DNA of 29,730 nt. Source: a virus. Shown here one piece after another: positions 1 through 29,730 of the stretch (positions are counted from its first letter, which is position 1; each line of letters opens with the position of its first letter). The position numbers and the translations under genes are program-made. The notes beneath the pieces were generated by a model that was given only the letters and a program-made list of their open reading frames with translations, ran no database searches and had not been told where the DNA came from. The DNA is taken from the IMG/VR virus record IMGVR_UViG_3300027861_000146, positions 1 through 29,730 of that record, one strand, 5' to 3'.

Positions 1-199
1 ACCATAACCCAACATAACCCAAATAACCCAATGGGTTTTTTCGGTTTATAGAATAACCCAACATAACCCAGTGAAAGCCAAATAACCTTAAAGATAAAGA
101 GAAAGATAAAGATAAAGATAAAGATAAAGATAGAGGTATAGATAGAGGTATAGATAAAGAGAAAAATATAGATAAATAAAAAAAAATAAAAAAAAATTA
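1..199. repeat. Terminal direct repeat, left copy
   Basis: Bases 1-199 are repeated at the right end of the window (29538-29730). The match is base for base except that this copy has four consecutive GATAAA units where the right copy has three. The segment contains the ATAACCCA array, the hexamer tract and the start of the A/T tract. The simplest reading is a circular or circularly permuted phage genome whose assembly overlaps itself, with slippage in the hexamer. Real terminal redundancy is the alternative and cannot be excluded from sequence alone. Confidence 0.9.
4..89. repeat. Iteron-like array of ATAACCCA repeats
   Basis: Exact ATAACCCA octamers begin at 4, 14, 23, 53 and 63, and a degenerate ATAACCTT begins at 82. 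The intervals are 10, 9, 30, 10 and 19 bp, all close to whole DNA helical turns, so a protein binding all copies would sit on one face of the helix. At 26-38 the octamer is followed by its own inverse (AACCCA then TGGGTT) and six T residues, which could also form a tight hairpin with a T tail. The array lies next to a very AT-rich tract, as in iteron-type replication origins. A terminase recognition site or operator array are other options. Confidence 0.6.
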
Positions 200-210
200 T
201 AAAAATATAT
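91..210. repeat. GATAAA hexamer tract and A/T-rich tract
   Basis: From about 91 the sequence is a purine-rich run of GATAAA and variants (GAGAAA, GATAGA, GGTATA), including four perfect tandem GATAAA units at 105-128 and a double GATAGAGGTATA at about 129-152. It then becomes almost pure A/T up to 210. The strand asymmetry (few C, few T runs) and low melting stability fit a DNA unwinding element beside the iteron-like array. The copy number differs by one unit between the two terminal repeats, which marks it as slippage-prone. No gene is visible between 1 and 267. Confidence 0.55.
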
Positions 211-246
211 ACTTTTTCATATTTCCTACATATTTATTAGTATAAC
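211..246 (+). promoter_or_regulatory. Putative phage promoter, copy A
   Basis: This block reads ACTTTTTCATATT, seven bases, then TATTTAT followed by TAGTATAAC. The same two-part motif recurs upstream of the small gene at 1466 and of the sigma-like gene at 6605, with nearly the same spacing (19-20 bases between the starts of the two parts) and always just before a gene. The TATTTAT element lies 37 bases before the ATG at 268. Assignment as a promoter is inferred from repetition and position only. Confidence 0.4.
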
Positions 247-429: not shown

Positions 430-979
430 TATGGAAAATGTAATTATCTATTCTTCAATATGGGATTTTACAGATGAATTATCTGATGAACAAACAGGTA
501 AATTATTTAAGGGTATAAACCAATGGAGAAAAGGAGAAGAAGTAATATTTGATGATTTATTACTAAAAGGTATATGGATGGGTATTAAACCAACATTAGA
601 AAACACAAAAAAGAATTATTATAAGAAAGTTGAAGCCAATCAAAAGAATGGTAAGAAAGGTGGTAGACCTAAAAAACAAAGTAATACTTCAACTAAAGAA
701 ATATTAAATGAAGGTGGTAAGATTAAATCTAACGAAGTTAAAACTATAAGTGATAACAACATACCACAAAAGAAAGATAATGTCTTAAAAGAGATAAAAC
801 TCACTAAACAAAAACAAGATGATTACTCAATTGAAATAGCAGAAGGAGAAGTTGTTAAACTAAATGAAAATGATTATAATTTAATTATGGGTGATGATAA
901 GTTAGAAAAGAAAGTAAGACAGAGTAATAACCAACAAGGAGTAGAGTATTGGTTAAAATTACATAAGAATAGAAAATAA
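419..979 (+). CDS. DUF6291-like protein, possible replication-associated
   Basis: A 186-residue protein. The N-terminal 70 residues contain a strand (NVIIYSSIWDF), the motif SDEQTGKLFKGINQW and GIWMGIKPTLENTKKNYYKKVE. This matches the small domain known as DUF6291, common in phages and mobile elements of Bacteroidota and often placed where a replisome-organiser gene would sit. It is followed by a basic KNGKKGGRPKK linker (77-86), typical of these proteins, and a charged, low-complexity C terminus. It overlaps the RHH gene by 11 bases, and an alternative ATG lies at 431. Because no other replication gene is recognisable, it is the best candidate for recruiting host replication proteins, but no catalytic motif is visible. 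Confidence 0.55.
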   Translation: MKNNMENVIIYSSIWDFTDELSDEQTGKLFKGINQWRKGEEVIFDDLLLKGIWMGIKPTLENTKKNYYKKVEANQKNGKKGGRPKKQSNTSTKEILNEGGKIKSNEVKTISDNNIPQKKDNVLKEIKLTKQKQDDYSIEIAEGEVVKLNENDYNLIMGDDKLEKKVRQSNNQQGVEYWLKLHKNRK

Positions 980-2634: not shown

Positions 2635-3117
2635 ATGGAATATTTTGAGTTAGAAATACAAGATGGTATAAAGTTGAAACACAACTATAAAAATCATCAT
2701 GACCTTATTGAGGATATAGAGAAAAAATATATTAGTTTAGAATGGGACTTCAATGACTATAAAAACTTTAATATAAAAAAATCTCTATTAGAAGTGATGG
2801 AGCATTTTCTAACTTCTACTCAACACCTATACTTTATTACATCAACTGATATGGAGTATGTAAAGATTGGTATATCTAATAATGTTGATAAAAGATTAAA
2901 GCAATTAAAAAAATCAACACCATTTGATATAGAGTTATATAAGTCAGTAGATTATGGGGGAGTATATGAACATTCATTACACACCACCTATAAGAGTAAT
3001 AACACAACTTTTGATACTGCGTTTGATGGTTCTACTGAATGGTTTATATTAGATGATAAACTAAAAAGATATATAGATAGCGTTGATATTAAAAAATTAA
3101 AAAAGAAGTATGGCTAG
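2635..3117 (+). CDS. T5orf172/MUG113-type GIY-YIG domain protein
   Basis: A 160-residue protein whose residues 64-139 fit the T5orf172/MUG113 branch of the GIY-YIG nuclease superfamily. HLYFITS and YVKIGIS are the two strands replacing GIY and YIG, followed by KRLKQLKKSTP, an EHSLHTTYK helix carrying the likely catalytic Glu at 112, and STEWF. The N-terminal 60 residues are a separate helical part. Such proteins occur freely in phages, where roles range from DNA nicking to regulation. The gene overlaps the small terminase candidate by 8 bases and is preceded by a 57-base AT-rich gap containing TATATACTTTATGATATAAC, which may be a promoter. The nuclease fold is fairly sure; the role is not. 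Confidence 0.7.
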   Translation: MEYFELEIQDGIKLKHNYKNHHDLIEDIEKKYISLEWDFNDYKNFNIKKSLLEVMEHFLTSTQHLYFITSTDMEYVKIGISNNVDKRLKQLKKSTPFDIELYKSVDYGGVYEHSLHTTYKSNNTTFDTAFDGSTEWFILDDKLKRYIDSVDIKKLKKKYG

Positions 3118-3538
3118 AAGAAAAAATCCTAAATATAAAAAACAGGATTTAATTACAAAGATTGTAGAGATGAGTTGTAATGGTGAAAACCAACAAGTGA
3201 TATTTGACTGGTTAAAGACAGAAGGTGAGATATCTCAATCTGCATGCTATAAGTTTATGAAAGAAGCCAAACCAATTATAAATGAAACCTTATCAGAATT
3301 ATATAAAGATGATTTAGATAGGAGTATAAGGGAGTTAGAGAGAGAAGCACAAGAGGCTAAAAACAATGAAGAATATAGATTGGCTTTTGATATAAGAAAA
3401 CAGATACATAAATTAAAAGGAATAGATACTCAATCTATTGATATTACCTCAAAGGGTGATAAGATAAATCAGATAGAAGTAATCAAAATAATAGAAGTTA
3501 AAAATGAAGACGATGAAGACACTAAAACTGAAGGATAA
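3110..3538 (+). CDS. Probable small terminase subunit
   Basis: A 142-residue protein with a basic N terminus (ARRKNPKYKKQDL), a helix-turn-helix-like stretch ending SQSACYKFMKEAKPII (about residues 42-57), a long charged helix and the segment AFDIRKQIHKLKGIDTQSID followed by a strand-rich acidic tail. This arrangement is typical of small terminase subunits of Bacteroidota phages, which bind the packaging site and pass DNA to the large subunit. It lies four genes upstream of the large terminase, with a KTSC and a GIY-YIG gene among those between. Sequence similarity in such proteins is weak, so the call rests on pattern and context. Confidence 0.55.
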   Translation: MARRKNPKYKKQDLITKIVEMSCNGENQQVIFDWLKTEGEISQSACYKFMKEAKPIINETLSELYKDDLDRSIRELEREAQEAKNNEEYRLAFDIRKQIHKLKGIDTQSIDITSKGDKINQIEVIKIIEVKNEDDEDTKTEG

Positions 3539-6556: not shown

Positions 6557-6561
6557 ATCGA

Positions 6562-6597
6562 ACTTTACCAAATTACTAGATATTTATATAGTATAAA
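6562..6597 (+). promoter_or_regulatory. Putative phage promoter, copy C
   Basis: ACTTTACCAAATT, six bases, then TATTTAT and TAGTATAAA, in the 48-base gap between the large terminase and the sigma-like gene. It is the third copy of the two-part motif also at 211 and 1421, and its second part matches copy A. It would start a middle or late unit headed by the sigma-like gene. Confidence 0.45.
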
Positions 6598-6604
6598 CTT
6601 ATAA

Positions 6605-7216
6605 ATGGATTACTATAGAACAATCACTAATTTTATTGAGGACAGATATAAATACTTATTAGGTTGTTGTGTTAATATTTTAAAATATAATGATAATGTC
6701 TTACCAGAAGAGTTATTATCAGAATTGACACTACACTTATACACTGAAGAAGAAAAGATAATAGAGTATATTCAAATCAATAAATTAGAAGCCTTCTGTG
6801 TTAGTTGGTTAAACATACAAGGTAAATATCAAACATCACCTGTCAATAGAAAACACACTAAACCAAATACATATCAATTAGACGATTATACAAAGGATAG
6901 TTTAGAATATACAGATGAAGTATTAGAAGATGAATTATATGATGATTATTATTATAGAAACTTATCGAGACACTTTACTGAAGAACAAATCGGTAAAATA
7001 AAGTTGGTAGATGATATTATACCAAAACTAACCAAATCAGAACAGATATTATTTAATGCTTACTTTATAGAAAATCTATCATATGATAAAATAGTAAAGA
7101 AATATACCTTCTATAGAGAGAAGGATGGTAAGAGGGTTACATACAAATCAAAGAAAAGTATATATAATCTTATGAAAGGGTTAAGAGAAAAAATAACAGA
7201 ATTATTAAACAAGTAG
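6605..7216 (+). CDS. RNA polymerase sigma factor-like protein
   Basis: A 203-residue protein with sigma-70-like organisation. An N-terminal helical part (LPEELLSELTLHLYTEEE) resembles region 2. The C terminus (LTKSEQILFNAYFIENLSYDK, then a basic loop and KSIYNLMKGLREKI) resembles region 4, whose helix-turn-helix reads the -35 element. Between them is an acidic Tyr/Asp-rich linker. Divergent sigma-like proteins are common in Bacteroidota phages and may redirect host RNA polymerase to late promoters. It is preceded by promoter copy C, and three bases separate it from the methyltransferase. The match is by pattern and moderate in strength. Confidence 0.55.
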   Translation: MDYYRTITNFIEDRYKYLLGCCVNILKYNDNVLPEELLSELTLHLYTEEEKIIEYIQINKLEAFCVSWLNIQGKYQTSPVNRKHTKPNTYQLDDYTKDSLEYTDEVLEDELYDDYYYRNLSRHFTEEQIGKIKLVDDIIPKLTKSEQILFNAYFIENLSYDKIVKKYTFYREKDGKRVTYKSKKSIYNLMKGLREKITELLNK

Positions 7217-28413: not shown

Positions 28414-28908
28414 TCAACTCCATAGTTGATTATCTTTTTTAATTTTTACTACATTGAATATATCCTTATGGTAGTTTCTATGGATACATACTCCTTCTAC
28501 TCTACCACCATCACCACTTCTACTTTTCCAGTCAATACCATCACCATCTTCATTATGTTCTCTTACAAAGTCTCTTAACTTATCTGATTGAATGAAGTAT
28601 GCTTCCTCAAAGTCGGGAAAGTAATATACAAAATAATCTGCTTCACTACTCATTATCCCACTATCTCTACCACTACAAGATACTTCTATAAAAATGTTAT
28701 ATGTTTTATAACCTTTTATATGTTCATATCTATCAGTTTTAACCTCAAAAGTTATCTCACTTTCAGTAGATGAGGTAATTCTAAAATCATATAATTTATC
28801 ATTCCTATATTCTGCAACCTTATAGGTAGGTCTCTTATCTGTAATATACTCTGCAATAACCCTCTCACCTTTATTACCTTGTGCGAGGTCTTTTAACCAT
28901 TTACTCAT
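28414..28908 (-). CDS. PD-(D/E)XK nuclease-like protein
   Basis: A 164-residue protein with the core of PD-(D/E)XK nucleases: helix KGERVIAEYI with E15, YDFRI with D41, and the strand ITFEVKTDR with E55 and K57 after a Ser/Thr loop, then NIFIEVSCSGRDSGIM. Length and order resemble small resolvase-like or MRR-like nucleases of phages. It may process branched DNA, degrade host DNA, or act in packaging; the sequence does not decide. It is the second gene of the minus-strand unit, 45 bases after the sigma-like gene. Confidence 0.65.
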   Translation of the reverse strand: MSKWLKDLAQGNKGERVIAEYITDKRPTYKVAEYRNDKLYDFRITSSTESEITFEVKTDRYEHIKGYKTYNIFIEVSCSGRDSGIMSSEADYFVYYFPDFEEAYFIQSDKLRDFVREHNEDGDGIDWKSRSGDGGRVEGVCIHRNYHKDIFNVVKIKKDNQLWS

Positions 28909-28953: not shown

Positions 28954-29487
28954 TCAGTTTTTTTTATTATGGTTAAAATAATATCTTAATTTTCTTCTGT
29001 ATTGTTGATGCCTTCTTTGGTCTCTATAACAAAATGGTTCTTGTGTTTTAGGGTTGGGGAAAAGATGTTTATCTGATGTTGGCGCTAATTTATATTTATA
29101 GTATTCTATCAACTCATTGAAGTTATCATCACCAATGATTTCTTTTATCTTCTTTCTAATTGGATTATCCTCAATAACATAATACTCTATGTAATCACTA
29201 CCTTCACCTATATCTTCTCTGATATCATCATCATACTCAATGAAGTTATTCTTTTGATTATTTTTTTTATCACATAAACCATATAAAGTATTTCTATATG
29301 CGATAAAGATATAGTCCTCAATAGTATCCATATCTATTCTACCTCTTTTGTATTGTTTATATACTCTGATAAAGACTTCATTATAGATATCATCCTTATC
29401 ATATGATACAAGTTGGTTGATGTAACCAGAATATTTATATTCCCATTTCCTTCTGTTGGTATCTAAAACTTTTAATATTTCTTCCAT
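28954..29487 (-). CDS. Sigma-70 region 2-like protein
   Basis: 177 residues from the ATG at 29487. A longer reading upstream to 29601 would run into the terminal repeat and is unlikely. Residues 20-76 follow sigma region 2: YINQLVSYDKDDIYNEVFIR and IEDYIFIAYRNTLYGLCDKK, with a basic start to the linker. The C-terminal half (HQQYRRKLRYYF) is basic and lacks a clear region 4, so it may be a shortened or diverged sigma. It is the first gene of the minus-strand unit, so it could be an early regulator or a switch between units. Confidence 0.5.
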   Translation of the reverse strand: MEEILKVLDTNRRKWEYKYSGYINQLVSYDKDDIYNEVFIRVYKQYKRGRIDMDTIEDYIFIAYRNTLYGLCDKKNNQKNNFIEYDDDIREDIGEGSDYIEYYVIEDNPIRKKIKEIIGDDNFNELIEYYKYKLAPTSDKHLFPNPKTQEPFCYRDQRRHQQYRRKLRYYFNHNKKN

Positions 29488-29537: not shown

Positions 29538-29730
29538 ACCATAACCCAACATAACCCAAATAACCCAATGGGTTTTTTCGGTTTATAGAATAACCCAACA
29601 TAACCCAGTGAAAGCCAAATAACCTTAAAGATAAAGAGAAAGATAAAGATAAAGATAAAGATAGAGGTATAGATAGAGGTATAGATAAAGAGAAAAATAT
29701 AGATAAATAAAAAAAAATAAAAAAAAATTA
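29538..29730. repeat. Terminal direct repeat, right copy
   Basis: It matches bases 1-199 with one GATAAA unit missing (three here, four on the left). See the left copy for interpretation. When the ends are joined, the gap between the minus-strand sigma-like gene and the plus-strand RHH gene is about 317 bases and is the only long non-coding region of the genome. Confidence 0.9.

Follow-up and report, generated by a model that had tools for sequence, protein, structure and literature searches.

The window analysed here, the whole 29,730-nucleotide stretch of IMG/VR virus record IMGVR_UViG_3300027861_000146, opens with an array of short direct repeats, tandem hexamers and an A/T tract, followed by a small ribbon-helix-helix (RHH)-like gene and a gene of the uncharacterised Pfam family DUF6291 (Table 1). 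The elements described in an earlier note on this DNA, namely five exact octamers and one variant with start-to-start spacings of 10, 9, 30, 10 and 19, GATAAA hexamers and an A/T tract, were all confirmed, and the octamer array is not a product of chance, because exact ATAACCCA occurs just twice in positions 300-29500 with both strands counted. A sigma-70 scan of positions 1-600 found no promoter, an Rfam search gave no match, single-strand folding was unremarkable (z -1.57), and a terminator-like match at 25-37 was discarded, being the dyad itself. GC skew tracks gene strand, nearly all window genes lying on one strand. As a separate observation, a promoter-like motif, a ACTTTTTCA-like sequence followed after ~10 nt by TATTTAT recurs at 213-240, 1421-1447 and 6560-6588 and resembles sequences 5' of genes in sibling phages.

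Table 1. Features of the array and of the genes around it (positions in the window).
Feature	Position	Strand	Remarks
Left iteron group, ATAACCCA x3	4-11, 14-21, 23-30	+	steps 10, 9
Dyad AACCC-AAT-GGGTT, then T run	25..37	not assigned
Right iteron group, ATAACCCA x2	53-60, 63-70	+
Variant iteron ATAACCTT	82-89	+
Variant iteron running into hexamers, ATAACCTTAAAGATAAAG	82..99	+
Tandem GATAAA-type hexamers	89..176	+	presumed unwinding element; TRF score 106
A/T tract	~160-211	not assigned	presumed part of unwinding element
Promoter-like ACTTTTTCA...CATATTTATT	213..240	+	inferred; 5' of operon
RHH-like small gene, 53 aa	268..429	+	weak PHROG matches only, E 0.0075-0.07
DUF6291 gene	431..979 (ATG 419 or 431)	+	proposed origin-recognition initiator; Pfam PF19808 E 2.9e-17
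NGKKGGRPKK codons	647..676	+	motif class accompanying AACCC iterons
Linker SNEVKTxSDxNIPQ	719..769	+	common at DNA level with sibling HTH initiators
Sigma-factor-like gene, divergent, far side of array	28954..29487	-	phrog_1740 E 4.4e-6
Second contig-end copy of 1-199	29538..29730	+	identical minus one 6-bp hexamer unit

The recurrence of the array at the far contig end had been overlooked in the earlier note. Relatives of the window were retrieved through TerL, the sigma-like gene and the gene at 28414-28908, direct searches of viral contigs with the DUF6291 protein and with a 19-mer of the array having returned no match. Three of these siblings (L005, L012 and L013) have contigs that continue across the window's end junction, in the order portal-to-holin genes, two genes on the minus strand (the homologue of 28414-28908 and one that is sigma-like) and the genes from 996 on; the ends of the window contig therefore overlap and join there. 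The genome is thus circular or terminally redundant, and the array is a single intergenic locus per genome, lying between divergent genes that start at ~29487 on the minus strand and at 268 on the plus strand. The break in the contig probably fell within the variable hexamer run, and the one-hexamer slip is as expected from an assembly break at a microsatellite. Near-exact end overlaps of this kind, differing by one hexamer, may escape exact end-repeat detection, so that a genome is called linear.

Its presence at both contig ends, upstream of the terminase genes, would also suit a site for the small terminase (3110-3538), either pac or a physical terminal repeat; recognition by this protein had been entertained in the earlier note. 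We consider this highly improbable: the ends overlap with the one-hexamer slip, siblings with homologous TerS (50-54%) and TerL (76-88%) carry unrelated repeats at this place in contigs that run through it, and the iteron/hexamer module goes with DUF6291 in phages of other groups.

What occupies the same slot in the sibling phages is informative about its function. The ATAACCCA array is absent from it in L005, L007, L012, L013 and L021, all of which hold ~3-5 iterons of 22-23 bp with differing sequences, followed by AT-rich 12/13-mer repeats and then a gene with an HTH-like N-terminus; L013 shares 78-92% identity with the window in many neighbouring proteins. The slot protein of L007 matches HTH_36 (E 6.3e-8) and PHROG replication-initiation families (phrog_270 at E 2.6e-8). 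The iterons and the initiator-like HTH gene of the siblings mark the slot as a replication module in this group of phages. Alignment of the linker of the window DUF6291 gene gave a score of 54 with L012 (shuffle maximum 33) and of 46 with L005 (shuffle maximum 36), and the sequences suggest that N-domain and origin were exchanged between the window and sibling initiators while the linker was retained. Window and siblings thus agree in slot, in similar flanking genes, in the order of iterons before AT-rich repeats and, for L012 and L005, in the linker, whereas they differ in iteron length and sequence, in hexamers versus 12/13-mer AT repeats and in a DUF6291 versus an HTH N-domain, an apparent cassette exchange.

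Two further features of the siblings were recorded. A conserved leader hairpin separates the AT-rich repeats from the HTH initiator gene (L005 4862-4945, L012 4842-4925, L013 4263-4346 on the minus strand, L021 1255-1345), with arms GTTGGAGG/CCTCCAAC that become GTTGGTGG/CCACCAAC in L021, including one compensatory pair; none was seen in the window. In L007 (4174-5509) the initiator and the sigma-like gene are both reversed relative to the other siblings, which suggests inversion of the module.

The product of 431-979 scores 63 bits against PF19808, above the gathering cut-off of 27.2, and DUF6291 genes elsewhere carry an iteron-plus-hexamer module of this kind and themselves occupy a position like that of lambda O; the view that no initiator is recognisable therefore falls. 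Its companion statement, that no helicase or polymerase is recognisable, stands among the window proteins scanned, and host enzymes are for that reason presumed to act in replication. In cultured phages the DUF6291 gene lies mostly directly 5' of a gene for DnaB, primase/helicase, replication P or a DNA replication protein, and the hosts of DUF6291 phages include Vibrio, Shewanella, Pseudoalteromonas and Flavobacterium, many further DUF6291 phages being uncultured. Homology to O-like initiators covers the C-terminal half of the DUF6291 protein of Pseudoalteromonas phage PS_L5 (phrog_391, E 9.4e-27), and a C-terminus of the PS_L5 type is fused to an HTH N-domain in Vibrio phage K67; DUF6291 is accordingly an alternative N-terminal module in lambda-O-like initiators. 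In the window protein, Pfam and PHROG searches recognised no O-like, DnaD-like or other helicase-loading domain at the C-terminus. The papers searched contain no mention of a DUF6291 protein, for which recognition of phage origins, and thereby the start of DNA copying, is the likely job on sequence grounds.

The modules inside DUF6291 genes of unrelated phages closely parallel the array of the window. Of 39 non-redundant DUF6291 genes, 38 contain tandem hexamers, positioned ~305-410 nt from the gene start; most genes have ~10-bp iterons, often AACCCA, just 5' of them, and strand and order of these intragenic modules equal those of the window array. Hexamers exceed codon-order shuffles in 38/39 genes and synonymous shuffles (p<0.05) in 27/39. 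AACCC spacings of 9, 10, 19, 20 or 30 account for 37 of 47, AGCAAA-type genes have an equivalent ladder, and a common pattern elsewhere is 10, 9, 20, 10 against 10, 9, 30, 10 in the window, the 10, 9 step of the left iteron group being found also in L101, L119 and L098. Conservation of octamer spacing in relatives, which the earlier note had named as a check, is thus borne out by the recurrence of a 9/10/20/30 lattice in DUF6291 genes. Because the iteron steps include values not divisible by 3, the ~10-bp lattice is a property of the DNA, and an explanation of the intragenic repeats by protein-level repeats only was rejected. Similarity extends to finer detail: AACCCAGTGGGTT or close variants form an equivalent of the dyad at the same place inside the DUF6291 genes of L063-L065, L067, L073, L076 and L077, and AACCTTAAAGATAAAG of the window is found identically inside the L236 DUF6291 gene.

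A module profile trained on 17 intragenic DUF6291 modules, with the window excluded, matches only the array within the window, at its two end copies (19.5 and 18.8 bits, E 1.4e-5 and 2.4e-5), the best score on 100 dinucleotide-shuffled windows being 10.3 bits; on the siblings it gave no significant match. The sequence and position of the array, its likeness to the intragenic DUF6291 modules and its coupling to DUF6291 are directly established, and the profile together with this coupling strongly supports, at the level of sequence, the iteron-origin organisation put forward earlier.

A reverse search with the window 16-mer AACCCAAATAACCCAA against IMG/VR, in which gene annotation was disregarded, leads to the same family. 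Among the matches listed, the 16-mer falls within a same-strand DUF6291 ORF at 49 of 117 loci and 5' of a DUF6291 gene at 4 others; at least two further loci (L185, L236) belong to DUF6291 genes not picked up by the test profile, and many of the remaining loci among the matches listed are in genes coding for NNPNNPR-like peptides, ParB-like in look. The usual, though not universal, site of the module is inside the DUF6291 gene, whereas the window array is intergenic. The motif lies ~100 bp upstream of the DUF6291 gene in L235, L238 and L240, and in the distant phage L270 (identity 24% for portal, 29% for major capsid) an array almost like that of the window lies outside the gene, adjoining RHH-like and DUF6291 genes and oriented opposite to the gene, with ATAACCTTAAAGAGAAAG as the counterpart of AACCTTAAAGATAAAG and an A/T tract likewise 3' of the hexamers; its DUF6291 protein is 51% identical to that of the window over ~116 residues. 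Since these four phages are similar in this respect, an array outside the gene is a recurrent variant, not an oddity.

The neighbouring RHH-like gene invites other interpretations. Binding to short tandem repeats is known from RHH proteins such as MetJ and ParR, a precedent under which dimers of the RHH protein (268-429) would occupy the 10-bp-phased octamers as an operator and repress two divergent promoters, replication starting elsewhere. The array does sit between divergent genes, 5' of the RHH-like gene; L270 likewise has such a gene ahead of DUF6291, as do PS_L5 and ZP9 when judged by eye. Recognition by this protein, also raised in the earlier note, is nevertheless improbable in our judgement, as AACCCA iterons accompany DUF6291 with or without a preceding RHH-like gene and are kept where HTH-type or other small genes precede it (L065, L067, L076), as they lie in most relatives inside the DUF6291 gene and are then followed by hexamers, and as the RHH gene of L270 has a likely operator of its own in two upstream palindromes, TTTAGAAT(G/C)ATTCTAAA (239-255 and 301-317), distinct from the iterons. 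Centromere-like partition sites of the ParR/parC type also consist of ~10-bp direct repeats next to an RHH-type gene, which those of the window resemble, and the phage might on that account persist as a plasmid; we give this hardly any credence, given that the window proteins scanned included no recognisable ParM, TubZ or ParA and that the hexamer element, like the replication setting of DUF6291, is in keeping with an origin.

Reading of the array by the DUF6291 protein receives further attention from the pairing of protein motifs with iterons. Across 99 DUF6291 proteins, a short basic motif after the third helix pairs with the iteron class, with 0 mixed pairs among those assigned, although the classes were set after viewing the data, the sequences are related, and motif and iterons are close neighbours in most genes and could travel together. 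The pairings are NGx[KRS]GGRPK with AACCC, GKLGGRPK with AGCAAA, GNLK[RK][WY] with TCGCA, GAxKRW with GATRGCAAACG, and RYATK with TACCA. L090-L093, which carry NGKLGGRPKK, were excluded from class assignment; the informative position may accordingly be that preceding GGRP instead of the N. In the window and in L270, motif and array lie apart, and both fit the rule.

The predicted DUF6291 fold comprises a confident three-helix domain (residues ~10-75) and a low-confidence remainder. It does not look like a winged helix, and a comparison with the PDB found no relative, so that DNA binding by DUF6291 is put forward here as a predicted property, while a structure search against viral models returned mostly DUF6291 proteins, plus one DnaD-domain protein. 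Tentatively, and at somewhat less than even odds, DUF6291 may represent a new class of origin-recognition domain, in which three helices and a short basic iteron-specifying tail form part of modular initiators in many phages and are exchanged with the origin as a cassette.

Altogether, the sequence comparisons favour, with a probability of roughly 0.85, an iteron origin of the lambda-O/SPP1 type that is read by the downstream DUF6291 protein and lies outside its gene. Iteron binding, melting, helicase loading and origin activity in the window phage are inferred from these comparisons: the DUF6291 protein (431-979) would bind the AACCCA iterons about every 10 bp on one helix face, the resulting nucleoprotein complex would open the adjoining GATAAA hexamers and A/T tract, the host replicative helicase would be loaded at the opened element, and host enzymes would carry out DNA synthesis.

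Known phage systems offer partial counterparts to this arrangement. In lambda, iterons and an AT-rich tract are found in the origin, which is located within O (PMC7466680). Phage SPP1 has two sites whose direct repeats are bound by gp38, oriL within gene 38 and oriR at a different place, and both include an AT-rich unwinding element (PMC6316719). As in lambda, iterons are followed by an AT-rich tract, the initiator has separate N- and C-terminal modules, and most DUF6291 phages have the origin inside the initiator gene; unlike lambda, the iterons form a ~10-bp lattice, the N-domain is DUF6291 and not a winged helix, the putative window origin is outside the initiator gene, and no P-type loader was found in the window. 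The proposed combination of direct repeats, AT-rich unwinding element and phage origin-binding protein resembles that of SPP1, whose oriR shows that such an origin can work away from the initiator gene, whereas the window has one locus rather than two and a DUF6291 domain without detectable homology to a known initiator N-domain.

DUF6291 thereby gains a testable role as an origin reader, with likely binding sites and an unwinding element defined across phages, and the data suggest a code relating protein motif to DNA iteron. In lambda-type systems the origin is coding sequence, so that mutations in iterons and in protein are hard to separate; the presumed origin of the window, being outside the initiator gene, allows each to be altered without the other. 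Furthermore, replication modules consisting of initiator N-domain, iterons and unwinding element are suggested to be exchanged between otherwise similar phages.

Two other observations concern genes on the far side of the array and beyond. The minus-strand gene at 28414-28908 codes for a 164-aa protein whose conservation extends to relatives at 46 IMG/VR loci and whose only Pfam similarity is a weak one to NOV_C; genome collections yielded 0 relatives of it and 1 DUF6291 locus. A second window gene, at 6605-7216, is weakly sigma-factor-like (phrog_1740, E 6.6e-4) and, together with the minus-strand gene at 28954-29487, possibly serves phage transcription control.
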